A DNA stretch of 24,287 bases from a virus: the IMG/VR virus record IMGVR_UViG_3300025879_000105, positions 1 through 24,287 of that record. One strand, written 5' to 3'. How positions within the stretch are numbered: the first letter of the stretch is position 1; the number at the start of each line of letters is the position of its first letter. The translations under genes and the position numbers were made by a program. Below, piece by piece: positions 2,633 through 16,897 of the stretch. The notes under the pieces are model-generated. The model was not told the DNA's origin. It was given only the letters and a program-made list of their open reading frames with translations, and searched no databases.

Positions 2633-2653
2633 GGGGTTAGCTTCCGCAACCCC
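2633..2653 (-). terminator. Possible weak terminator whose stem contains a stop codon
   Basis: On the minus strand GGGGTT-GC-GGAA-GC-T-AACCCC forms an 8-bp stem with a bulged T and a GGAA (GNRA-type) loop. It is followed by only a short U-rich run (TTTGTTAT). The last codons and the TAA stop (2637-2639) of the 57-aa gene form part of the hairpin. Termination here would be partial. It may instead act as an attenuator or RNA-processing site separating the small-protein cassette from the scaffold and capsid genes. Confidence 0.45.
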
Positions 2654-2810
2654 CTTGACATTTAACACTTTTTTTCTTCATGCTGCAACCACAGCTGGAA
2701 GATTTTTTCTTTTTCTTTCGTGGTTTTTTCTTCGCACCTGCATAGTAGTGAGTGACAGTTTGACCGTCACCGTCACCATATGTCATTTGATGCGCTAGAC
2801 CTTGATCCAC
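2637..2810 (-). CDS. Small Lys/Cys-rich protein with GLA motif (57 aa, GTG start)
   Basis: The frame starts at GTG 2810 because an in-frame stop lies just upstream (2823-2825), and an AAAGG sequence is correctly placed. The product begins VDQGLAHQMTYGDGDGQT, continues with a strongly basic block (GAKKKPRKKKKKSSS) and ends in a cysteine-rich tail (CGCSMKKKSVKCQGGCGS, four Cys). The Q-G-L-A-x-x-M motif at residues 3-9 recurs in its neighbours. The basic block suggests nucleic acid binding and the four Cys could bind a metal. Both are inferences. No family is recognised. The stop codon lies within a terminator-like hairpin. The start lies 2 bases after the end of the preceding gene, so translation is probably coupled. 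Confidence 0.65.
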   Translation of the reverse strand: MDQGLAHQMTYGDGDGQTVTHYYAGAKKKPRKKKKKSSSCGCSMKKKSVKCQGGCGS

Positions 2811-2812
2811 AA

Positions 2813-2959
2813 CTAGTAGCCTTTACCGCCAGTAGGTGCTGCAGCCATCTTGCCTGCTAGACCTTGCTTCTTAGCTGCTTTCTCTTTACCTAAACACTTA
2901 CCTGCTTTTGTACAAGAAGCTTTAGTCTTACATCCACCACATGGTTTAAATTTTTGCAT
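2813..2959 (-). CDS. Tiny CxxC protein with GLA motif (48 aa)
   Basis: Starts at ATG 2959 behind AGGGGA and ends with TAG 2 bases before the next start. The product (MQKFKPCGGCKTKASC...) has four cysteines at 7, 10, 16 and 22 (C-x2-C-x5-C-x5-C), which could form a small zinc-binding knuckle, embedded in lysines. A QGLAGKM motif follows at 32-38, then a short flexible tail. It lies in a tight string of small basic genes between portal and scaffold. Reality as a gene is supported by the ribosome site, the close packing and the motif shared with its neighbours. I cannot assign a function. Confidence 0.68.
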   Translation of the reverse strand: MQKFKPCGGCKTKASCTKAGKCLGKEKAAKKQGLAGKMAAAPTGGKGY

Positions 2960-2961
2960 GA

Positions 2962-3204
2962 TTATCCCCTAGATACTTTTGCTTTTTCAGTATTACTTAC
3001 GAATTGTTTTTTACCACCCTGAGAGCCAGCCTTCTTCTTTCTAGCTGTAGCAGCTCTTTCGCTTTTGCTTAAACTTTGAGCTTTCTTTCTAGGTAAACAC
3101 CTATCAGGGTTTTTCTTGTTCTTTGAAGTACCGCATTTACCAGCAATGTTACCGCTAGAATTAATACGTACCCAATCTTCTGCCAACCATGCTGCTAGAC
3201 TCAT
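2962..3204 (-). CDS. Small basic protein, DUF6321-like (80 aa)
   Basis: A lysine-rich 80-residue protein with a conserved-looking core, WVRINSSGNIAGKCGTSKNK, followed by NPDRCLPRKKAQSLSKSERA and a basic tail (ARKKKAGSQGGKK). The WVRI-GxIxGxCGxS-PxRCLP-AxSLSK series is one I associate with a small virus/phage family (DUF6321-like). Its function is not established. The two cysteines (CG and CLP) could pair or hold metal. The N-terminus, MSLAAWLAEDW, replaces the GLA motif of its neighbours with a similar short helix. Its start overlaps the preceding gene by four bases (ATGA), so translation is coupled. The charge suggests DNA binding in the head or in assembly (inference). Confidence 0.75.
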   Translation of the reverse strand: MSLAAWLAEDWVRINSSGNIAGKCGTSKNKKNPDRCLPRKKAQSLSKSERAATARKKKAGSQGGKKQFVSNTEKAKVSRG

Positions 3205-3389
3205 TTCTTTTTACCTTTACTGCCTTTCGCATAGTTAGGATCTTTACAGTACTTAGATGCAGCTAGGTTAGCATATGCGCTAGGGTACTTATCAAAAGTA
3301 CGTTTAGCCCAGGCAATACCTTCAGCACAAATCTTGTTGTCTTTCTTTTTCTTACCTAGTGTCTCTGCTAAACCTTTAGCCATTACCAT
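3201..3389 (-). CDS. Small basic protein with GLAETL and PSAYANLAASKYC motifs (62 aa)
   Basis: Basic 62-residue protein: MVMAKGLAETLGKKKK, then KICAEGIAWAKRTFDKYPSA, then YANLAASKYCKDPNYAKG and a KGKKK end. The FxxYPSAYANxxASxxC signature with a preceding KIC cysteine recurs in small phage proteins of marine origin as I remember them, with no known function. M3 (3383) is an alternative start that would remove two residues and a 7-base overlap with the preceding gene. The protein has two cysteines and 14 or so lysines, consistent with nucleic acid contact. The GLAETL segment is identical to that of the adjacent 88-aa protein. Position between portal and scaffold suggests a virion or head-assembly role (inference). 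Confidence 0.75.
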   Translation of the reverse strand: MVMAKGLAETLGKKKKDNKICAEGIAWAKRTFDKYPSAYANLAASKYCKDPNYAKGSKGKKK

Positions 3390-3649
3390 TTAACCTTATC
3401 AGCCCAATAAGCTGCAGACATTTTACCTTTAGCAATATTCTTAGCGTGACGTGCCTTAAACGACTTACGACGTTTTCTAGCAGCTTCTGACTCACCTTCT
3501 TTTCTAGGAGAACCACTTACGCCTTGTTGGCCAAAACGAATAATCTTTTTCTTACCACCTTCACAAGCCTTTACCACATGAGACTTTGTCTTGTGGCTAG
3601 GTGTGCGCTTCGGCTTGTTACATGCTAGTGTTTCAGCTAAACCAGCCAT
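3383..3649 (-). CDS. Small basic protein with GLAETL and IRFGQQG motifs (88 aa)
   Basis: An 88-residue, highly basic protein. The N-terminus is MAGLAETLACNKPKRTPSHK. A conserved-looking segment, GGKKKIIRFGQQGVSG, is followed by a charged RKRRKSFKARHAKNIAKGK helix and an aromatic end (MSAAYWADKVKW). The IRFGQQG...RRKSFKARH...AxYWxxKxKW series is one I recognise as recurrent in marine phage structural regions, always uncharacterised. Two cysteines (residues 10 and 29) are present. The strong positive charge suggests binding to DNA or to the acidic scaffold. It overlaps the 62-aa gene and follows the glutamine-rich protein by four bases. Confidence 0.78.
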   Translation of the reverse strand: MAGLAETLACNKPKRTPSHKTKSHVVKACEGGKKKIIRFGQQGVSGSPRKEGESEAARKRRKSFKARHAKNIAKGKMSAAYWADKVKW

Positions 3650-3653
3650 AACG

Positions 3654-3908
3654 CTACCTCATCATCGATTGAGCTAAGCCTTGTTGCATTTGTGGCTGTT
3701 GCTGAGCTTGACCCTGCTGAGCTAGTTGCTGCTCTAGGATATCAATAGCTTGCATAATAACTTCAGGAGGAATACCCTGCTGAACTAATTCTTGAGGGTC
3801 TACACCATCCATAAGCAACTGAATGATCTGTTCGATCATCTGCATATCTGCTTGTGGTTGTTGACTTTGAGCAGGAGCACCTGCCATTTGTTGTGCTAAA
3901 CCTTGCAT
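3654..3908 (-). CDS. Glutamine-rich small protein with GLA motif at both ends (84 aa)
   Basis: Low-complexity, glutamine-rich 84-residue protein with a compact middle (IIQLLMDGVDPQELVQQGI, then PPEVIMQAIDILEQQL) that reads like a small helical bundle of the form GVDPxELxxQGxPPEVI. The sequence QGLAQQM at residues 2-8 is mirrored by QGLAQSM at 76-82, so the same short motif caps both ends. It lacks the lysine blocks of its downstream neighbours, so it is unlikely to bind DNA itself. It may be an assembly or linker protein next to the portal (inference). The start shares one base with the stop of the preceding gene. Confidence 0.75.
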   Translation of the reverse strand: MQGLAQQMAGAPAQSQQPQADMQMIEQIIQLLMDGVDPQELVQQGIPPEVIMQAIDILEQQLAQQGQAQQQPQMQQGLAQSMMR

Positions 3909-4345
3909 TAGTAATTACCTCGTTCTTCATATTCTCTAGCTGCTTGAGCCATTTCCGCTTCTTGAGCTATACGGTCTAAACGTTGTTGTTCAGCTAAACG
4001 TTCTCTTTCAGCAAATGCAGATACTTGCGGTGATTGCTGAGCAGGTTGGCCTGAAGACTTAAACATACCACCTAAGTAACCTTTTACTTGGTCATACAAA
4101 CTAGGTCCTTGTACTTCTCTACCTTGACGGGCATTAACAGCGTAATCACTAGTTGATAAAGGAGCATTGTTCATACGTGCTTCTCTATCAGCCATTGCTT
4201 GTATTTCCATAAGCAGTTGGTTTTGACCTTCTGCTCTACCAGCATCAACTGCCTGTCGTTGCTTCATGTCTTGTGCAAGGTTGTCTAGCTCCCTTGCTTT
4301 TTGACGGTTAGCTTCATTTTCTTTGCTAAGCTGAGTATAGCTCAT
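3908..4345 (-). CDS. Coiled-coil protein next to the portal, function unknown (145 aa)
   Basis: A 145-residue, mainly helical and hydrophilic protein with two coiled stretches: residues 1-60 (MSYTQLSKENEANRQKAREL and following) and about 110-140 (FAERERLAEQQRLDRIAQEA). They are separated by a short loop with GLY-like and proline residues around GPSLYDQVKGYLGGMF. There is no signal peptide or cysteine. The start codon overlaps the portal stop (TAATG), implying translational coupling and suggesting an interaction with the portal, for example as a head-tail connector accessory or internal head protein. I see no named family. Confidence 0.72.
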   Translation of the reverse strand: MSYTQLSKENEANRQKARELDNLAQDMKQRQAVDAGRAEGQNQLLMEIQAMADREARMNNAPLSTSDYAVNARQGREVQGPSLYDQVKGYLGGMFKSSGQPAQQSPQVSAFAERERLAEQQRLDRIAQEAEMAQAAREYEERGNY

Positions 4346-6336
4346 TACATAACTCCAATATTTTTATCGCCAGCTAGACGCTGAGCCATCATCTGTTCTA
4401 GGTTAGCTCTATGTTTAGCAGTCTCTGCTTCCATCTTCTGAGCATGTTTAATATCTTCCAGCTCTACTCGTTCTAAGTGACTAAAACCTTCGTCTTCTTT
4501 AATAAACTTAAGATCAGTCATATCAGCTTCACTAGTTAGTTTACGAGCTTTAGCGGCTTCTACTGCTGCTTTGTTCATCTTAAGTTGAGCATCAATAGTA
4601 TTTTCGTTAGCACGAGCCATCTTATCTTGAATATCAGCTTTAAGTTTCTCATTCTCTAAAACTAGGCGTTCTAGTTCTAATTGTTTAAGCTGCTCTTGTA
4701 CTGGGTCAGGCTGTGGTTGGTATTCACGAATACGCTTAGCCTGTTCTGGCATACGCATTAACTCCATAATATCAGCCATAATAGTACGACGAATAGCAGG
4801 ATCTTCGTTAGGACCTAAGGTCTGTAGTAAGAACGATAACTCTTGTGACTTAGCAGCGTTGTCTTCTGCAGTAGCAATAGTAACGTCTAAGTCAATCTTA
4901 CCATCTAAGTCATCTTTACGTACTGGTACAAATTCTGAGTTGGTAACACGAATTACTTCTTCGTCTTCTAAGAACTCTGAATTGTAAGACATCCACTTTC
5001 TAATAAGAGGTTTAACTAGGTTTTCTGCAATGTTACGTACAATGTTCATACGTCGTGTTGCTGTAGCATCTAATGCGCCTCTAGCGCCTGTAGCGGTGCT
5101 ACCTAAACTACCTGAGTTAATACCACCACTAAAAGACTTAGTACCAGTAATAGACTCAATCTCGTTATTCATCAAACCGATCATATCGAATGCAGAACCA
5201 GGAATGTTGTTGTAACTACCTTGCCAGAAATCGTTAGGGCTACCGTTATACTCAAAGTTAGCACCTGCTAAGAATTTCTTACGGTTAACTTGGTCTAGTG
5301 CGCCTTTACGTACAGCTACTTGGCCGTTGTTAGACTGAGCCATATTATCGATAATACCTCGAATAATAGCTGTCTTAACTTTCTGATTGTCACCGATCAT
5401 CTCAGCGTTAGCTTCACCATGAATCTTAAACGGTACACTGTTAAAAGGTACAACAATAAATGGAGGCTTGCCATCAGGGTATGGGTTAGATTGTAGACGT
5501 ATAATAACATCGTTAATCCATGCACATACGATAGGTTCAGCAATGCCGTCACCATTCATATCGTAGTTACCCCAATACTCGTATACAACCATCTTCTTAC
5601 GTGGTTCGTCCGAGAATCTAAATTCTGTTTCGTCAGGTGGATCAAAGTCAAAGTCTTCACGACCTACTTTAGCCACTTGCTCTAAATTCTTATATCTACC
5701 GTCTTTTTTAAGAGAAGACAAATCTGTTTCGTAGCGGTAAATGACAAACTGAGCGTTATCTAGGTTATCTTGACATGTAGGATCAATGTAGATATCTTCG
5801 TTACGACATACCTTAGCAGTAGGCTGGTTTTTCTTAACAATAGTCTCTGTGACTTCTTGTTCGACAATAACTTCCATACCAGTTTCAGGATCCATAACTA
5901 CCATCTCTGCAGTAGTAGTTACTTCTTCGTCTTCGTAGTCCCAACCTGTTTGTACAACTAGTGTACCTTCACGGTCAAGTACTTTGACTGCTTTAGACAT
6001 AAAGTTAAAGCGATCAAACTTACGACAGAACTGAGTGTTAAGTAATAATTCGTTTTGACGAGCTGCTTCGTCGTCTTCCCAGGTAATAGGAATACACTTA
6101 ATAACGTCTGATGTACTAACAAAAGGGTCTACAATTGTAGCGTGTTGCCATTCTGACTGCTTCTTAATATCTCTAGACACAATAGCAGACTTACCCTTTT
6201 TCTCATTACCGTAAGGGTCACCGTTGTACTCAGCTTTCCATTTAGCAATGACAGCATCCTGATCTCTTTTAAGTAGATCAGCAGCTTTTAGGTCAGCTTT
6301 TAAGGCGCTAAGTAATTCAGCTTTTTTAATTTTCAT
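4345..6336 (-). CDS. Portal protein (head-tail connector, 663 aa)
   Basis: Dodecameric ring at the capsid vertex through which DNA is packaged and ejected. The 663-residue length fits portals of short-tailed phages. Features seen: an N-terminal helical section with WQHATIVDPFVSTSDVIKCI, an EDDEAARQNELLLNTQFCR helix, a wing-like beta region around residues 120-200 with VCRNEDIYIDPTC, then VYEYWGNYDMNGDG followed by PIVCAWINDVIIRL and PFIVVPFNSVP. A clip or stem region follows, with GANFEYNGSPNDFW and LGSTATGARGALDATATRRM (around 415-440). The C-terminus is a long glutamate/alanine-rich helical barrel (about 540-650). The YIDP, GxNxxY and TATGA-type segments recur in P22/N4-like portals as I recall them. 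A strong AAGGA site precedes ATG 6336. A good promoter lies 35-63 bases upstream, so this is the first gene of the head operon. Confidence 0.85.
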   Translation of the reverse strand: MKIKKAELLSALKADLKAADLLKRDQDAVIAKWKAEYNGDPYGNEKKGKSAIVSRDIKKQSEWQHATIVDPFVSTSDVIKCIPITWEDDEAARQNELLLNTQFCRKFDRFNFMSKAVKVLDREGTLVVQTGWDYEDEEVTTTAEMVVMDPETGMEVIVEQEVTETIVKKNQPTAKVCRNEDIYIDPTCQDNLDNAQFVIYRYETDLSSLKKDGRYKNLEQVAKVGREDFDFDPPDETEFRFSDEPRKKMVVYEYWGNYDMNGDGIAEPIVCAWINDVIIRLQSNPYPDGKPPFIVVPFNSVPFKIHGEANAEMIGDNQKVKTAIIRGIIDNMAQSNNGQVAVRKGALDQVNRKKFLAGANFEYNGSPNDFWQGSYNNIPGSAFDMIGLMNNEIESITGTKSFSGGINSGSLGSTATGARGALDATATRRMNIVRNIAENLVKPLIRKWMSYNSEFLEDEEVIRVTNSEFVPVRKDDLDGKIDLDVTIATAEDNAAKSQELSFLLQTLGPNEDPAIRRTIMADIMELMRMPEQAKRIREYQPQPDPVQEQLKQLELERLVLENEKLKADIQDKMARANENTIDAQLKMNKAAVEAAKARKLTSEADMTDLKFIKEDEGFSHLERVELEDIKHAQKMEAETAKHRANLEQMMAQRLAGDKNIGVM

Positions 6337-10600: not shown

Positions 10601-11753
10601 TAATAATCCAACCTTTATTTAGATCAACACCCTGAACATTATAGTAAACATTTATCAGGTCATCGTTAAAAATGTTCTGTGTCTTATCGGTAGTACTTCC
10701 GTATATGTTATAAGTAGAACCACCAGAAGAGCTTCCGGTAGAACTGCGAGTAACTGTAAATGAGCTTCCAGCATTTACCCAAGTGTTATCACCATTATTT
10801 GCAGTAGGAACTCGTGCTTGAATAACGTAGGTCCAACTACCAGAAGCAGGCATATCACCTGTTAAGTTAAAAGAGTCTGCTGTACCTGTATAAGTATCAT
10901 ATACAGTGTCTGTACCAGTAGTACGAAGAAGTCTGTAGTCTGTTACACTATTACTGTTTGCGTTTGTTATAGACTTAGTGAATGTACTGTTTGAAGTAGT
11001 AACAGCTCCAGAAGGGCTTTGAGTAATTACAGTATCTGGATTAACTTCTGAGTCTCGAGTAACAGTAAAACTTGTTACGTTTGAAACAGTACCGTCACCA
11101 CCATTCTCCTCAGATACAAAAGCAGTTATGTAGTAAGTAGTCCCAGAGGTAGAAGGGGTGTTATTAATACTAACCCATACACCATCTTGATTTGTAATTG
11201 TTTTGAGTACTGTACCAGAGTAGCCAGTGGACCGTATCTGATAACTAGTGGTGCTGGTGGTGCTTGTTAGTTTGACACTAAAAGAGGAAGAATTAAATAG
11301 TGGTGTGGTTTTAGCTACTGTAATACTTGTGTCTGGAGCTACAGTGTCCTGTATAGCACCATTATCAGTAATATACACTTCTCCTGAGGCTACAGGCTGT
11401 GTAGTGCCGGTACCCCAACTCCATACCAAACCTCCACTAACAACGTAACTAGCGTCTACCCTTTTGTAACTTGTGTCAGTACCTACCTTAAGGTCATACC
11501 AATAAGTGTTGTAAGTATTTGTTTGCTGGAGTTTTAAAGTGTAGGTATTAGAATAAGAATAGCTTATAGAATATAAAGCTGGTATTTTACCAGATAAACC
11601 AGCAGGTGCACTTGTACTGCCACCTAAAGTACCGAAACTAGGGTTGTAGTAATCACTAGCTAAAAACCCTCTGTAGTAAGTAGTAACACCTGTATAAGTG
11701 TTAGTTTCAAACCTATAAGAAGAGCTTAGGGTGTAATTATGGAGAGTTGCCAT
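7626..11753 (-). CDS. Giant tail fibre built of repeated beta domains (1375 aa)
   Basis: Receptor-contacting fibre or appendage protein, very rich in Thr, Ser and Gly. After an N-terminal region (about 1-139) come three sets of internal repeats: two roughly 99-residue units beginning PDTxIT (140 and 239), two roughly 78-residue units (549 and 630) with TFVNDGD and TWHANGT, and two roughly 183-residue units (705 and 887) beginning YLAP. A PKD/cadherin-like domain occupies about 1172-1270 (DSDGTISAITITQVSG, then AGALVFRVTATDDDEG). A C-terminal domain begins YGLEVYGPN at 1283, like that of the following 236-aa protein. There is no signal peptide, which fits virion assembly in the cytoplasm. The stop of the preceding gene touches the start (TAAATG). 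The Ig/FN3-like nature of the repeats is inferred from composition and spacing. Confidence 0.8.
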   Translation of the reverse strand: MATLHNYTLSSSYRFETNTYTGVTTYYRGFLASDYYNPSFGTLGGSTSAPAGLSGKIPALYSISYSYSNTYTLKLQQTNTYNTYWYDLKVGTDTSYKRVDASYVVSGGLVWSWGTGTTQPVASGEVYITDNGAIQDTVAPDTSITVAKTTPLFNSSSFSVKLTSTTSTTSYQIRSTGYSGTVLKTITNQDGVWVSINNTPSTSGTTYYITAFVSEENGGDGTVSNVTSFTVTRDSEVNPDTVITQSPSGAVTTSNSTFTKSITNANSNSVTDYRLLRTTGTDTVYDTYTGTADSFNLTGDMPASGSWTYVIQARVPTANNGDNTWVNAGSSFTVTRSSTGSSSGGSTYNIYGSTTDKTQNIFNDDLINVYYNVQGVDLNKGWIITETDCLANPDAGFLYNGHPTGSTFMSYLNSFTGSSYSAAFILNNVTKFTISGTVTDPYGVTNINFSSKSVTPGNGTTTTESVAQTFDTFREGETLDYSVTGGELYNGSAWGDSGTVDDGASIKLRGVTPDTYSGSQTVSVTFSKNGVTKRTENFVINTPALTAPTDITFVNDGDSSATEQVTVTGSGGTSGTIKVSNDGTNWHANGTKFNHTRGTAVTYYTRREGVNSLNSSNYTEDHSVACTDPTNITFVNDGDASATEDVAVTASGGYGGTLEVSNDGSTWHANGTTFDQSRNTSVTYYARRKATYSSSNYTEDHSVGYLAPLAYSYTVSGSNPLNYSDSGFNVAISGADANHTYRVLHDGANAGTRTTDGNIAVQFSELPSPGAQKTYTVQAVRTTDTGGSGSYVTKSTFIRSVRPSTPTVTTSTAATEASLADVTVTASSTGATEYRFSNDGTTYTDWGTSTSHIFEDQSRGTSYTYSVQSRSAIVESLVGSSTITVPYLAPKAFSYSVSDSDPLAYNDGGFNVTIAGADTNHSYQVLHNGSNAGTRTTNGNILISGSELPSAGSVKTYTVRALRNTNIGGSGTYQAIYSFTRSMRPSNPIVSVSTASTASNLADVTVSAASTGASEYRFSKDNGGTYTAWQTGSSYIFEDLSRGTAYTFKAQARSAYAVAAATGSASYTVPYLAPNTSVAIPSTAYTVGSNTTTQDIVITGVGDNETVRITGEDSVTATAKGNVTLTVDTPTSGSVGTYQIEIKRDTDSGGNGTTWYDTNKSFTITRGSNATPVIDLFISTPSSTVGEETVTLSATGITDSDGTISAITITQVSGTNVTLADVSTTGIDTAAATASTTFTSPNEAGALVFRVTATDDDEGTSSKDVLVTTSESSIITPPTEGLYGLEVYGPNNELYLSVTDKLVIFLDNLVGYLPQNTQSIDIAIIGNPTNVIWLNAPAALSLASLNFALNGNTLTISRASASTTSIYYEVLVLGE
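8544..9641 (-). repeat. Two tandem ~183-residue repeats in the 1375-aa fibre
   Basis: Residues 705-886 and 887-1070 are clearly related. Each runs YLAP, GFNV-I-GAD-NH, GxNAGTRTT, SELPSxG, KTYTV, GGSG, RPSxP, LADVTV, STGAxEYRFS, then IFED-SRGT and a closing V before the next YLAP. Divergence at many positions argues for an old duplication maintained as protein repeats. Confidence 0.8.
9642..10109 (-). repeat. Two tandem ~78-residue repeats in the 1375-aa fibre
   Basis: Residues 549-629 and 630-704 share PTxITFVNDGD, SATE, VSNDG, WHANGT, a stretch ending TYY-RR, and NYTEDHSV. They directly precede the YLAP repeats, so the shaft is a series of duplicated modules of different size. Confidence 0.8.
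10749..11336 (-). repeat. Two ~99-residue PDTxIT repeats near the fibre N-terminus
   Basis: Residues 140-238 and 239 to about 335 each begin PDTxIT, pass through a serine/threonine-rich beta stretch, then W-containing and GGDG/NNGDN segments, and end SFTVTR. Similarity is weaker than in the other repeat pairs. Confidence 0.6.
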
Positions 11754-12104
11754 TTACCAAGGAACCCCAATCCCTCTTACTCTAAGAGGATCTTGTTCTT
11801 CACACATAGTAATCGCTTGATTTTCTAATTCACCTACTAAAGTAAGTCCTGTTACAGGGTTAGGTTCTTGCATATTAATCAGTGCTTGCTGTACCCAGCT
11901 AATTACTTTAGTCTCAGTCAGCTCTGCATAAGGCACAAACTCTTCTAGGTCTTCTACATCTAGTTGCACACTGCCCCACGTATATCCCATATGACCATCT
12001 TCGTCTGTAGCTTCTACCCAAAAATGTACGTTTTTAGCAACTTTTTCATTACCATTAAGGTTCTGTATCCACTCAATATTAATGATTTTCCATACTATGT
12101 TCAT
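11754..12104 (-). CDS. DUF7936-like small protein, copy 2 (116 aa)
   Basis: A 116-residue protein beginning MNIVWKIINIEWIQ, with VHFWVEATDEDGHMGYTWGS, FVPYAELTETKVISWVQQAL and a GVPW end. This matches in order the protein encoded at 18438-18824, and both sit next to a giant fibre gene. The pattern resembles a family I know from cyanophages (DUF7936-like), found among structural genes, function unknown. Overlap with the preceding glycosyltransferase (ATGA) and direct contact with the fibre start (TAAATG) imply coupled expression. A fibre-associated or tail-tip accessory role is an inference from position. No catalytic residues are evident. Confidence 0.68.
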   Translation of the reverse strand: MNIVWKIINIEWIQNLNGNEKVAKNVHFWVEATDEDGHMGYTWGSVQLDVEDLEEFVPYAELTETKVISWVQQALINMQEPNPVTGLTLVGELENQAITMCEEQDPLRVRGIGVPW

Positions 12105-12892
12105 TTCAGTACCTTAAAACTTTTAGTTTGTTTATTTACGTAATACGGAGCTCCACACTCAGCAAAATCCGTATTTTTATAGTCCAGTTTGCACAGATTA
12201 TGCATTTTAGCATGACCTTCGTCAATTAGGTCTATCCAAGTTCTACCATTAAGCCAAGTGCTTGGTAGCAAATGAGCTTCTCTTGTACCATTTACACATG
12301 AGCTATAGACTTGATACGACCTGTAACCTTTGTCTATTACTCTACCACAAAAGTTAGTGTCTTCACCATAAACAAGTCCAAACCCTTCTTCATAAACAAA
12401 GTTAGTATTAAAAAATATTTCGTCTTTGTACCACTTTCTAAAGTTTTTTACTAAAAACAAACCAGTTATGGCATTAGAACCATACCTAAACCTATGGTAC
12501 TTACTGTCGCTATAATCTATTTTTAAAAGCTCTTCTTGTACAACAGAGATTAGATCTCCTATGTCTTTTGATCTAGCGGTGTCAATGATGTCGTCACCCC
12601 TAACTATAAAAGTATCGTCGTCAAGAATAATGCAGTAGTCGTCATCTGTACTGTAGAAATGGTTTAAGGCGATGTTTCTAGCCTGCCCTGGCGGAAATTG
12701 TAAGTCTGACTTTATCCAAGATACACTGCTAAAGTACTTGTAGTAATCTTCTTCCCATTGCATAGCAATAATACATACAGAAAGATCTTTAGACTCACAC
12801 CAACTAGCTACTTCTTTTAACAGTTCTATACGCTCTTTACTAAAAGACTTATCTCCTAGCCAAGAAATTATATAAGCAGTTGTAAACTTCAT
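12101..12892 (-). CDS. GT-A fold glycosyltransferase (263 aa)
   Basis: Probably transfers a sugar from a nucleotide-sugar donor. From the start at 12892 the protein begins MKFTTAYIISWLGDKSFSKE, has GQARNIALNHFY at 69-80, and ILDDDTF at 89-95 with a DxD-type metal/nucleotide-sugar site (91-93). It also has a GEDTNFCGRV segment (176-185), where E-D commonly supplies the catalytic base in GT2-like enzymes. I chose this start because an AGG site lies 7 bases before it and it avoids a 38-base overlap. A start at 12940 would add 16 residues. The gene sits inside the fibre operon, so possible substrates are the phage fibres or host surface sugars, but I cannot tell which. Host glycan modification to block superinfection is another option. 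Confidence 0.8.
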   Translation of the reverse strand: MKFTTAYIISWLGDKSFSKERIELLKEVASWCESKDLSVCIIAMQWEEDYYKYFSSVSWIKSDLQFPPGQARNIALNHFYSTDDDYCIILDDDTFIVRGDDIIDTARSKDIGDLISVVQEELLKIDYSDSKYHRFRYGSNAITGLFLVKNFRKWYKDEIFFNTNFVYEEGFGLVYGEDTNFCGRVIDKGYRSYQVYSSCVNGTREAHLLPSTWLNGRTWIDLIDEGHAKMHNLCKLDYKNTDFAECGAPYYVNKQTKSFKVLK

Positions 12893-12902
12893 AACAAAGC
12901 CT

Positions 12903-13229
12903 TTAGACTTTAAGAAGCCACCAAAGGAAAGCAGCACCACCTGTAATTAGTGCAGACCAAAACAACTCTATCTTGCCTATTACATAAGTATTTTTATCTT
13001 GAGCTTTTTCTAGCTGGTTTTGTCTGTTTTGCAGATCTAATATAGCCTTTTCATGCTTATCTATCTTGCTAACTAGTAAAGATACGTCTTTTCTCATCTC
13101 TACCATTTCAAAGCGCATATCGCTAAGTTTAGTTACAGCGTCAGCCATAACAGACATAGCATCAGACATTGCTTCCATCTTAACTTCTAGCTTTATAACT
13201 GCATCTCTAATCTGCTGTTGTTCGTTCAT
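12903..13229 (-). CDS. Coiled-coil protein with C-terminal membrane segment, XhlA-like (108 aa)
   Basis: A 108-residue protein. Residues 1-85 form a heptad-like coiled coil (MNEQQQIRDAVIKLEVKMEA, with VSKIDKHEKAILDLQNRQNQ later). Residues 88-106 form one hydrophobic helix (FWSALITGGAAFLWWLLK). This build, with a terminal membrane helix after a coiled coil, resembles XhlA-type holin accessories, but I see no diagnostic motif. It has no signal peptide and is probably C-tail anchored in the inner membrane with the coil in the cytoplasm. It is the first gene behind the 13.3-kb promoter, so it is expressed with the fibre genes rather than with the lysis operon. A role in lysis or membrane attachment remains open. 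Confidence 0.6.
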   Translation of the reverse strand: MNEQQQIRDAVIKLEVKMEAMSDAMSVMADAVTKLSDMRFEMVEMRKDVSLLVSKIDKHEKAILDLQNRQNQLEKAQDKNTYVIGKIELFWSALITGGAAFLWWLLKV

Positions 13230-14185: not shown

Positions 14186-14593
14186 CTAGTTTTGAAAATT
14201 ATTCTGAGAGTTCATACGCCTAAGAGCATCTAGTTCTTGCTGAAGCTTTAAAACTTCTAGGCGCTTTACACGTAGTTCTAACTGATACAAGGAGTTACAG
14301 TTAATTCTTTCTTTAGGCTTGTCTAGTGGGATAATTATCCTAGCATAAACACCTACATCCTTTGTACTGTTCATGTCGGGGTTACTACCAAACACGGAAC
14401 CGTTGTTTACTATTCCTGTTACACCAAATTCTAGTTGTGTAGCACCACCAATAGCGTTTTTACAGTCTAAGTTACCTGATCTAATACTGTCTTGTCCGTA
14501 TGTACTAGGGCTAGATGGTAACGCAAGGTTCAAAGAACTAGAGTCTGCCATAGCTATGCCGCACATAAAGAATAAAAGTACTAGTTTTTTCAT
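14186..14593 (-). CDS. Secreted protein with SLNLALPSSPSTYG motif, unknown function (135 aa)
   Basis: A signal peptide (MKKLVLLFFMCGIAMA, cleavage probably before DSSS) is followed by SLNLALPSSPSTYGQDSIRS, a LDCKNAIGGATQLEFGVTG segment, and DVGVYARIIIPLDK. The end is a helical, charged section, NSLYQLELRVKRLEVLKLQQ. Two mature cysteines (LDC and INC) could form one disulfide. The motif series is familiar to me from marine phages, always as a hypothetical exported protein. It should reach the periplasm. It is the last of five signal-peptide proteins in a row and overlaps nothing. Whether it stays in the cell envelope or becomes part of the virion is unknown. Confidence 0.7.
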   Translation of the reverse strand: MKKLVLLFFMCGIAMADSSSLNLALPSSPSTYGQDSIRSGNLDCKNAIGGATQLEFGVTGIVNNGSVFGSNPDMNSTKDVGVYARIIIPLDKPKERINCNSLYQLELRVKRLEVLKLQQELDALRRMNSQNNFQN

Positions 14594-14594
14594 T

Positions 14595-14981
14595 TTACTT
14601 AGCCTTAGAACATATGCGAGAGGCTACTGCAGTAAGAAACTTAATATTTTTACGTAGCTTAGATTTTGAGCATATGTAAACAGCTTTGTTTACAGCATCA
14701 GACCTAATGTAAATATCTATATTTACTTCACTTAAGTAGTCTACCTTCACTATTCTATATAAAGAAGTAAATGGTATAGGGTTAAAGTCGGCGTCAAACA
14801 CGCCAATTTCATAATACTTTATGTCATTTCTTCTATTGTAAACATTTACCTTGGTCCTGTAGACGTTATCTACATGAGAAGGTACCATTTTAAAATACGT
14901 AGGTGTCATCTCATGGCTTGCAGCGTTCCATGAAAACGCTACAATTACCATAAAAACACCAACAGCTACTAGCTTAGCCAT
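14595..14981 (-). CDS. Secreted Ig-like protein, fimbrial-chaperone-like (128 aa)
   Basis: After a signal peptide (about 1-20, MAKLVAVGVFMVIVAFSWNA) the protein reads MTPTYFKMVPSHVDNVYRTK, VNVYNRRNDIKYYEIGVFDA, then RIVKVDYLSEVNIDIYIR. That alternation of beta strands with a RIV-type strand looks like the first Ig domain of a PapD-type pilus chaperone. It ends in two ICSK segments (C104, C124), likely a disulfide. It is about half the size of a full PapD chaperone and would have only one domain. The start codon overlaps the preceding pilin-like gene's stop (TAATG), so the two are probably made together. The chaperone call is from pattern only and should be tested by structure prediction. Confidence 0.68.
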   Translation of the reverse strand: MAKLVAVGVFMVIVAFSWNAASHEMTPTYFKMVPSHVDNVYRTKVNVYNRRNDIKYYEIGVFDADFNPIPFTSLYRIVKVDYLSEVNIDIYIRSDAVNKAVYICSKSKLRKNIKFLTAVASRICSKAK

Positions 14982-15484
14982 TACTTAGCAATACACTCTG
15001 CTGTTACAAGCGCAGTGTAATCCCCACCTGGGAATGCTTTATCCCCACCTAGGGCTACTTTTGAAGATGTTTCAAACCAAGTAGATCCTGTAGCAATTAG
15101 GTCATAACGATCTAGCATGCCTAACTCTACTTTATTTGTCTCATACTCTCCCATACCTGTAGCATCTGATACTGTTTTTACTGTAGTATCTCCTTCCCAT
15201 GTCATAACTTCGTTAATGATAGGACTAGTAGAAAACTCTTGAGGAGCAGTAATTTCTGCATAGTAAGAATCTGCTAAAGTAACATCAAAACGTATCACAA
15301 CAGGGTCTCCACCATCTTCAGCAGCAGTAGATAATGTATACGCATTTGGGTTACCATAAGTACCTGCCATATCTGTTTGGATAATGCAGCGAGACTCTAC
15401 AAAAGCGTGAATAGGTGCAGTTTCTGCCAGTACATTTAAACTAGCTAAAGCTCCTAACATAACAGCGCTTAATTTTTTAAACAT
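14981..15484 (-). CDS. Secreted beta-rich protein with two terminal cysteines, pilin-like (167 aa)
   Basis: A signal peptide (MFKKLSAVMLGALASLNVLA, then ETAPIHA) precedes a beta-rich domain of about 145 residues. It contains one cysteine near the start of the mature protein (C33, SRCIIQTD) and one near the end (C164, VTAECIAK). Many fimbrial subunits and spore-coat-U-like proteins have this pattern of alternating polar and hydrophobic strands with a cysteine near each end. The mature N-terminus does not show a clear donor strand. A phage-encoded periplasmic or surface protein follows from the signal peptide. The adjacent gene may be its chaperone. The role is not established. Confidence 0.65.
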   Translation of the reverse strand: MFKKLSAVMLGALASLNVLAETAPIHAFVESRCIIQTDMAGTYGNPNAYTLSTAAEDGGDPVVIRFDVTLADSYYAEITAPQEFSTSPIINEVMTWEGDTTVKTVSDATGMGEYETNKVELGMLDRYDLIATGSTWFETSSKVALGGDKAFPGGDYTALVTAECIAK

Positions 15485-15501
15485 TTCTATCTCCTCTACG
15501 A

Positions 15502-16410
15502 CTAGTTGCCATATTGCATACTAACCATTTTTTCATGTAGTACCTGTTGTGCTAGACCGTTTCTAAGGCCTTTATAACTATCAGGTAGTTGTTTGTCTTG
15601 TATAGACAGTTCTTCTTTGTAAGTACCACCATCAATAGATGTACTGTAATAAGCATTCATCCTAGTCGCAGTGTTAACTGAATCTAGCATTTGTGCTTGA
15701 GCAAAAGAGTTAGCAAACAAAAGATTCGTATTGGCTACGGCTAAAGCTTTTTCCAAACGTTCTTTGCTATCTAGTTTTTCTTCTGCTTCTCTTTTCTCTT
15801 TTTCTTCTTCGGTTTCTTTCTCTTCTTCTTCAAGACTATCATCATCAGGAGAGTACTGTGTATCATCTGCATGCTCATCAGCATCATAAACGTCGTACTC
15901 TACTTGCACAGGTTCTGGTATAGGTACTTTGTAACCTGGACATGAAGGACTATACTGTGGGTCATAACAAGGATCTACTCTGTAGGTATACGCAACATTA
16001 GCATTTTCTACAGAACCGTTACCATCAACTTCAATAGACCCTTTACCCCATACCTCTTTAGGTAAGTTCATAACAGGTACAGCTTTATTAATCTCTGTGT
16101 TGTCTAGAGAGCCCGGTAACCAACTATCAGTTTCTCTAAACACATATCCTTCACCTAAAGCGTTTTCGTTCTGTACAGAAACATCTACACGGTCTTCTGT
16201 TGACTTACGTATATTGTAAGAGTATATAACATTCTGAACTGTAAGACCTGGAGGAGCAGGAAACACATTTCCCATATCCCACACCAGGTTGTTATCTACT
16301 ACAGCGTTACCAGTAGTACCATAGTAGGGTACTACAGAATTAGAGTAAGAGTAACAAGGCAGCAAGAGCGCCAATACTAAAAGCACCCTTTTCAGTTTTA
16401 CTAAGTTCAT
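15502..16410 (-). CDS. Secreted protein with acidic coiled-coil region, unknown function (302 aa)
   Basis: A signal peptide (MNLVKLKRVLLVLALLLPCY, cleavage near SYS-N) is followed by a beta-rich domain of about 120 residues (GTTGNAVVDNNLVWDMGNVF, VIYSYNIRKSTEDRVDVSVQ) and a short cysteine-containing stretch (DPCYDPQYSPSCPGYK). Then come an acidic, charged coiled-coil segment of about 190-230 (EEEEKETEEEKEKREAEEKL) and a helical end with GLRNGLAQQVLHEKMVSMQY. The first 71 bases of the gene overlap the end of the upstream gene in another frame, so this signal peptide and the upstream C-terminal membrane helix are written in the same DNA. The family recurs in marine phages as I recall, but no function is known. 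Confidence 0.65.
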   Translation of the reverse strand: MNLVKLKRVLLVLALLLPCYSYSNSVVPYYGTTGNAVVDNNLVWDMGNVFPAPPGLTVQNVIYSYNIRKSTEDRVDVSVQNENALGEGYVFRETDSWLPGSLDNTEINKAVPVMNLPKEVWGKGSIEVDGNGSVENANVAYTYRVDPCYDPQYSPSCPGYKVPIPEPVQVEYDVYDADEHADDTQYSPDDDSLEEEEKETEEEKEKREAEEKLDSKERLEKALAVANTNLLFANSFAQAQMLDSVNTATRMNAYYSTSIDGGTYKEELSIQDKQLPDSYKGLRNGLAQQVLHEKMVSMQYGN

Positions 16411-16897
16411 CAGATTTCTTTAACTCTTCTTCAGTTTGTTCTACATGGCTTTCCCAAGCTAGCTGTGCTTCAGGTCCTATTGTCCCCATATAAGGACAAG
16501 GAGTACCTGCATGCATCATAGCATCAAAAACTTTTTTGTCTTGGCACATTGTACTTACGGCTGCGACTTTCATACCCATGTCATACAACACTTTAGCGTT
16601 TTTAAGACGAACACAGTTCTCTTCTGTAAAAGTAGTACCTGCGCTAATACCTAGTATCTGTGTTTGCACTGCACCTGCTACGCCAATAGTACACAAGTCG
16701 CTGTTAGAGTTACTGCCAATCTGAGGAGCAATAGCAGATGGGGGTGGCTGCTTAATAGTAGTAGTCATTTGCCCTTGAGTAGTTATAGTACTGTCATTTT
16801 TAGAATCAGTACGTATAACGTCTGTGTCTTCCTGTGCAAGACTTAAACCACTAAAAGCGGTTAGTACTAGTAAAATAGTAATACGTGCCCACATCAT
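16340..16897 (-). CDS. Secreted, C-terminally membrane-anchored Cys protein (185 aa)
   Basis: A signal peptide (MMWARITILLVLTAFSGLSLA, then QED) is followed by a threonine-rich region, a PPPSAIAPQIGSNSNSDLC segment, then GVAGAVQTQILGISAGTTF, and DMGMKVAAVSTMCQDKKVFD. The end is hydrophobic (about 170-185, GAFSIGALAALLLLL). Four mature cysteines (69, 95, 118, 134) probably form two disulfides in the periplasm. The PPPSAI...SNDLCTxGVAGAVQTQILG series is one I recognise from several marine phages, where it is uncharacterised. It would be held in the inner membrane by its C-terminal helix. It is the first of the five secreted proteins and starts 12 bases after the lysozyme stop. Its last 71 bases also encode the signal peptide of the next protein. 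Confidence 0.72.
   Translation of the reverse strand: MMWARITILLVLTAFSGLSLAQEDTDVIRTDSKNDSTITTQGQMTTTIKQPPPSAIAPQIGSNSNSDLCTIGVAGAVQTQILGISAGTTFTEENCVRLKNAKVLYDMGMKVAAVSTMCQDKKVFDAMMHAGTPCPYMGTIGPEAQLAWESHVEQTEEELKKSDELSKTEKGAFSIGALAALLLLL

Follow-up and report, generated by a model that had tools for sequence, protein, structure and literature searches.

A short terminal peptide of the form G-L-A-x-x-[M/L/I], usually preceded by Q, E, K or A, recurs on unrelated small proteins encoded between the portal and scaffold genes of phages related to Alteromonas phage AD45-P1, and is almost certainly a real, selected and transferable tag. Judged from sequence, the tag very probably docks its carriers to a common partner, and it probably loads the cargo of a variable gene slot into the procapsid of these AD45-like, N4-like phages.

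The cassette and its flanking head genes

Sequence comparison identifies the window (the whole stretch of DNA analysed, a 24,287-base IMG/VR virus record) as part of the genome of a marine, N4-like podovirus closely related to AD45-P1, whose portal protein is 83% identical to that of the window, with other N4-like phages next at 54% or less. All of the head and cassette genes described here lie on the minus strand, and the N4-like gene order of SU10/N4-type portal, gp57-like protein and major capsid protein (MCP) is present. The portal gene (4345-6336; SU10_portal, E = 1.3e-142; phrog_1216) is directly followed by a gene for a 145-aa protein (3908-4345; PHROG and locus comparison), and in more distant relatives the gene in this position bears GLA motifs. 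On the other side of the cassette, a 101-aa gene (2234-2539; phrog_26806 and phrog_2346) occupies the same position as the gene of about 110 aa that canonical N4-like phages carry between portal and gp57. The gp57-like acidic protein (983-2221; phrog_2120, PHROG name "tape measure") is probably the scaffold, a role that it fits because its homologue was not found in N4 particles and gave only one peptide in LIT1 (PMC3715699), and because its N-terminal half is acidic. The MCP gene starts at 925 and runs off the contig end, so that its N-terminal part is present (2-925).

Six open reading frames lie between these flanks at 2637-3908, with neighbours overlapping or 2-4 bases apart and plausible ribosome-binding sites before most of them. 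The initial annotation had described six coupled small genes carrying six copies of a motif on five proteins, and six-frame translation of the whole window bore this out:.GLA..[ML] occurs exactly six times, always inside the cassette genes and on five of their products, in four of which it falls within the first ten residues, as had been claimed. All six reading frames stand, with the small corrections that the 57-aa gene has a GTG start and that the 62-aa gene may encode 60 aa if the second ATG is the start.

The 84-aa protein (3654-3908; phrog_22442) is tagged at both ends, with QGLAQQM at its N-terminus (3885-3905), QGLAQSM at its C-terminus (3663-3683), low-complexity Q/P/A linkers and a short helical core. 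In an alignment of 13 sequences of its family G3, L4 and A5 as well as G77, L78 and A79 are invariant and the linkers are variable, and this doubly tagged protein is the most conserved member of the slot. A direct viral scan with the single 84-aa protein returned no matches, whereas an alignment-based search with the family succeeded. The 88-aa basic protein (3383-3649; phrog_7595), of a family common in marine phages without the tag, bears AGLAETL at its N-terminus (3626-3646), and the 62-aa basic two-Cys protein (3201-3389; phrog_27331), very widespread without the tag, bears KGLAETL in the same place (3357-3377). The 80-aa basic protein (2962-3204; phrog_23735/phrog_14910) is the one member without the strict motif; it begins MSLAAWL, with Ser in place of Gly, and SLAAWL (3184-3201) is tentatively a variant tag. 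Its homologues start with SLA.WL in members of the clade and with SL[KR].W in pelagiphages, and one relative (locus L008) bears KGLAETM near its C-terminus. The 48-aa Cys/Lys-rich protein (2813-2959) has QGLAGKM in its C-terminal part (residues 32-38; 2846-2866), and its relatives are in some cases tagged (L015) and in others untagged. The 57-aa protein (2637-2810) combines the N-terminal tag QGLAHQM (2784-2804) with a capsid-protein-like segment (2730-2792) and a Lys/Cys-rich tail.

A Pfam search with the six window proteins gave no trustworthy match, and comparison of the 88-aa and 62-aa proteins, the gp57-like protein and the 84-aa family with solved structures gave only weak or chance matches. 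AlphaFold2 models of the 88-aa and 62-aa proteins (pLDDT 73.7 and 66), and a Foldseek search with the former, provided no informative fold. Elsewhere in the window, a run of consecutive small proteins with apparent signal peptides (14186-16897, minus strand) has no Pfam match where searched; some of these look fimbrial- or periplasmic-like by eye, and one of 302 aa ends near NGLAQQV, a relaxed match to the motif. A 279-aa protein (12101-12940, minus strand) looks glycosyltransferase-like by eye, with no Pfam or PHROG match.

Recurrence, confinement and selection of the tag

Absence or random placement of the motif in homologous cassettes had been named beforehand as grounds for abandoning the idea of a shared tag, and neither is what was found. 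Related portal loci were fetched and the genes between portal and scaffold called with a simple script, giving 29 loci with 176 small proteins, and a motif was counted as terminal when within about ten residues of either protein end. In all, 83 motifs were terminal, 54 of them N-terminal and 29 C-terminal, whereas residue-shuffled versions of these proteins had a mean of 0.27 and never more than 2 in 500 rounds. Because the loci are mutually related these are not 83 independent events, and a sounder gauge of recurrence is how many unrelated protein groups bear the tag, which is at least ten. A chance motif was ruled out by shuffling for both strict and relaxed tags. Shared ancestry of the small proteins was also ruled out, since with the tag masked they fall into many unrelated BLAST groups.

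The usual order in these loci is portal, a gene of about 150 aa, the doubly tagged 84-aa gene, a variable stretch, the 57-aa gene, the 101-aa gene, scaffold and capsid, and wherever tagged genes were seen, their place was within the head operon, between the portal and scaffold genes. The variable stretch holds from none to about eight genes, enzymes included. Tagged products include an ADP-ribosyltransferase (L243; ART-PolyVal PF18760, E = 8.8e-20) with an N-terminal tag starting MGLASML, and DUF5856 ferritin-like proteins, also tagged N-terminally, one recognised by a Pfam match (L251) and three by sequence resemblance (L052, L064 and L062). In a LysM protein (L006) and a Cell Wall Hydrolase (L011) the motif lies some way in from the terminus, 21 residues before the C-terminus and near residue 49, respectively. 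Most tagged proteins are small single domains, and several activities in one long polypeptide were not seen. The earlier description of the set as DNA-binding proteins is consistent with the basic character of most tagged slot proteins (median net charge about +11) and is nevertheless too narrow, since ADP-ribosyltransferase, LysM, cell-wall hydrolase and ferritin-like proteins are among the cargo, so that DNA binding is not the common denominator. Three homing-nuclease-like proteins encoded in the slot have no tag, nor, save for one relaxed match, have four proteins with predicted membrane segments; together with the untagged lysozyme elsewhere in the window, they indicate that the tag marks particular products and not a stretch of DNA. 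GIY-YIG-like homing nucleases, recognised by eye, are inserted repeatedly in the slots of L064, L052, L026 and L243.

Confinement to the slot holds on the genome scale. Both AD45-P1 (104 kb) and the contigs examined (96, 78 and 70 kb) have their terminal motifs in the portal-scaffold slot, and matches outside it are internal, save one on the opposite strand within a hydrophobic reading frame. Giant late reading frames of 2431-2776 aa in relatives, candidate virion RNA polymerases from a region that lies outside the window, are without a terminal tag, a point that counts against a loading role. Two late proteins of 121-166 aa (G007, 1127-1627; G001, 62417-62782, minus strand) have a conserved internal GLAS[TA]L, perhaps by chance and perhaps related to the tag. 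In a tree of portals, AD45-like phages generally bear the strict tag, and its occurrence in the sister clades is scattered. In the more distant of these it relaxes to a terminal [GS]LA, seen 70 times against 2.7 expected in the slot, compared with 4 seen against 5.0 expected among 304 proteins outside the slot of sister-clade loci. The canonical N4-like phages LUZ7, K479, PG11 and At2, and the Alteromonas phages V19 and R22Y, have a single gene of about 110 aa in this place and no tag.

The tag behaves as an add-on, since homologues of the 88-aa and 62-aa cores from outside the clade lack it (tagged in 0 of 74 and 0 of 79, respectively, against 10 of 14 and 6 of 6 within the clade); these untagged homologues also rule out that it is simply the native N-terminus of a family. 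Neither is it essential, since some slot members of tagged families are without it (the 88-aa protein in L022 and L056, several DUF5856 proteins and the 57-aa protein in AD45-P1). In AD45-P1 (NC_021532, L001) an unannotated reading frame of 55 aa (10660-10827) is a homologue of the 57-aa protein that starts MEQVSAFVTN and keeps the capsid-like segment without the GLA tag, which shows that the tag can be lost. In other marine phages the same small families show a different recurrent motif, the broad pattern [MFY]x(K/R/N/S)GG[A/V/K/R], and a broad [MFY]..GG-type pattern is matched by 32 of the 79 outside homologues of the 62-aa protein. This motif is possibly a second tag code, and tiny proteins made of several xxGG copies are encoded nearby. 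Loci with the xxGG motif are L107, L111, L122, L127, L128, L139, L157 and L160 (small reading frames near the 62-aa homologue), L387, L355, L207 (4189-4338) and L212 (4279-4605).

The codons differ freely among tags, with 79 distinct 21-mers among the 83 copies and third-position identity of 0.35 against a background of about 0.38, so selection acts on the protein. This bears on the idea that the motif is a DNA by-product, either a repeated recombination site or a start-region duplicate copied between genes. The differences in slot genes among relatives, as if swapped as modules, would suit such an origin; however, the diversity of the 21-mers, the tagging of C-termini as well as N-termini and the invariant G, L and A at both ends of the 84-aa protein between variable linkers leave it hardly any probability. 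A degradation or processing signal, such as a protease recognition or head-maturation cleavage site, is also very improbable. The placement at protein ends would fit one, and GLAET copies contain an LxE string resembling the cleavage sites of T4 gp21, which are LxE-like. Most copies, such as QGLAQQM and QGLAQSM, have no Glu after GLA, however, C-terminal copies are not at the extreme end, and no S78 head protease was found in six clade records (the corresponding S77 search was without a working control). The proposal of a common terminal tag on unrelated proteins beside portal and scaffold thus has strong support in the homologous cassettes, the confinement to the slot, the untagged outside homologues and the diversity of codons.

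A putative route into the procapsid

The proposed mechanism would operate late in infection, when the tags would attach to one shared partner within the procapsid under construction. Any protein that acquired the tag would in this way be enclosed, kept alongside the DNA inside the head and passed on to the next host. We infer this binding, packaging and delivery, and the identity of the partner, from the pattern of tagged genes. That the partner belongs to the procapsid and that the tagged proteins are packaged is somewhat favoured on two indirect grounds, the kinds of domain that carry the tag and the resemblance of part of the 57-aa protein to a capsid protein. The gp57-like scaffold ranks as the likeliest partner, followed by shell or portal, although its own candidacy is tentative. 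Being tagged at both of its ends, the 84-aa protein could bridge two partner sites.

The best sequence hint of a tie between the cassette and head assembly is the segment that follows the tag in the 57-aa family, [VT]YGxG..QNTxHYYAG, which resembles the start of the capsid proteins, MATNVYGNG..GANTIVHYYDRAG. Profile-profile comparison of this segment with the MCP N-terminus gave a probability of 78.8% and a score of 25.7 over a short match of 21 columns, against 15.5 for the best of 100 column-shuffled controls; a single-profile HMM search with the same proteins was borderline. The N-arm of the P22 coat protein is thought to be the binding site of the scaffold (PMC9962691), and the N-terminus of the SPP1 coat protein changes its fold when the scaffold leaves (PMC6813328). 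Since the coat N-terminus is linked to scaffold in both phages, the 57-aa protein, with its MCP-like segment, may share a binding partner with the capsid N-terminus. Its combination of tag, capsid-like segment and polybasic tail could then tie cargo to scaffold or shell.

Two other readings accept the tag as a docking motif and differ on what docking achieves. The partner might lie outside the virion, at an assembly site, in the transcription or replication machinery or at a membrane, with the proteins not packaged at all. The direct evidence all concerns a shared docking motif and not packaging, a role inside the infected cell is conceivable for small basic proteins, and the 84-aa protein could be a soluble bridge; however, this reading is rather unlikely given that the tagged genes were always found in the head operon, that the tagged domains are of kinds known in packaged proteins and that the 57-aa protein resembles a capsid protein N-terminus. 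Alternatively, the tagged proteins could be structural, as mini-cement, plug or connector at the portal vertex or inside the shell, with the tag as their binding site on the particle and no delivery. Adjacency to the portal gene, the high conservation of the 84-aa protein with its two tags, and the likeness to capsid protein within the 57-aa protein all fit this role, for which the 84-aa and 57-aa proteins themselves could still qualify. As an account of the whole set it is unlikely by a good measure, since slot genes vary in number and kind and include enzymes, and AD45-P1 manages with the 84-aa protein alone tagged.

Relation to known loading systems and significance

Among known systems, the tag appears to work most like the capsid-targeting sequence of T4, with no homology between them. 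The internal proteins that bear the T4 sequence are cut by the prohead protease at a consensus site. In both cases one short terminal peptide is found on different small proteins made late (IPI, IPII, IPIII and Alt in T4), an ADP-ribosyltransferase is among the cargo and the cargo set varies between related phages (PMC9026906). The T4 ADP-ribosyltransferase Alt is packaged and injected (PMC9026906; PMC5512222), and the targeting sequence is believed to enable T4-like phages to draw a variety of proteins into their heads (PMC9026906). In contrast to T4, the tag has a different sequence, stands at the N-terminus, the C-terminus or both, is accompanied by no S78 head protease in the six clade records searched and occurs in N4-like podoviruses. 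Encapsulin cargo-loading peptides are likewise short C- or N-terminal peptides on diverse cargo encoded beside the shell gene. Their sequence differs from the GLA tag, their partner is the shell, which they bind in a pocket on its inside, and the present system is a virus. They act from either cargo end beside an HK97-fold shell gene and are sufficient for loading (PMC7355545). The tag, whose role in packaging is putative, is classed with neither the T4 nor the encapsulin peptides because its sequence differs from both and its placement differs from that in T4.

Polyvalent phage effectors (Iyer et al. 2017; PMC5512222) share with the cassette the ART-PolyVal domain of a tagged relative and a location among late virion genes, but there the activities are fused in one long chain, whereas here separate small proteins carry a common tag. 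Canonical Schitoviridae (N4, LUZ7) resemble the window in the order of their homologous portal, gp57-like and capsid genes, and differ in having one untagged gene of about 110 aa between portal and gp57. A literature search for the tag strings found no matching paper, which given the collection searched is weak evidence of novelty.

A broader scheme, tentative on present sequence data, is that cargo loading in tailed phages relies on peptide address codes that are interchangeable and specific to a lineage. The code would be GLAxx[ML] in the AD45-like group and, on the same small cargo families in other marine phages, [MFY]xxGG[A/V/K/R], which also occurs as multi-copy mini-proteins, with the 84-aa and 57-aa proteins as dedicated adaptors that would couple any tagged protein to procapsid assembly. 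Detailed knowledge of how tailed phages select proteins for packing alongside their DNA comes from few systems, T4 foremost. If the loading function holds, a six-residue tag that works from either end would make packaged proteins predictable from sequence in many uncultured marine phages. It would also account for the groups of tiny "hypothetical" genes found next to portal genes, draw attention to possible injected effectors and, as a small loading signal, offer a way to put foreign proteins into phage particles.
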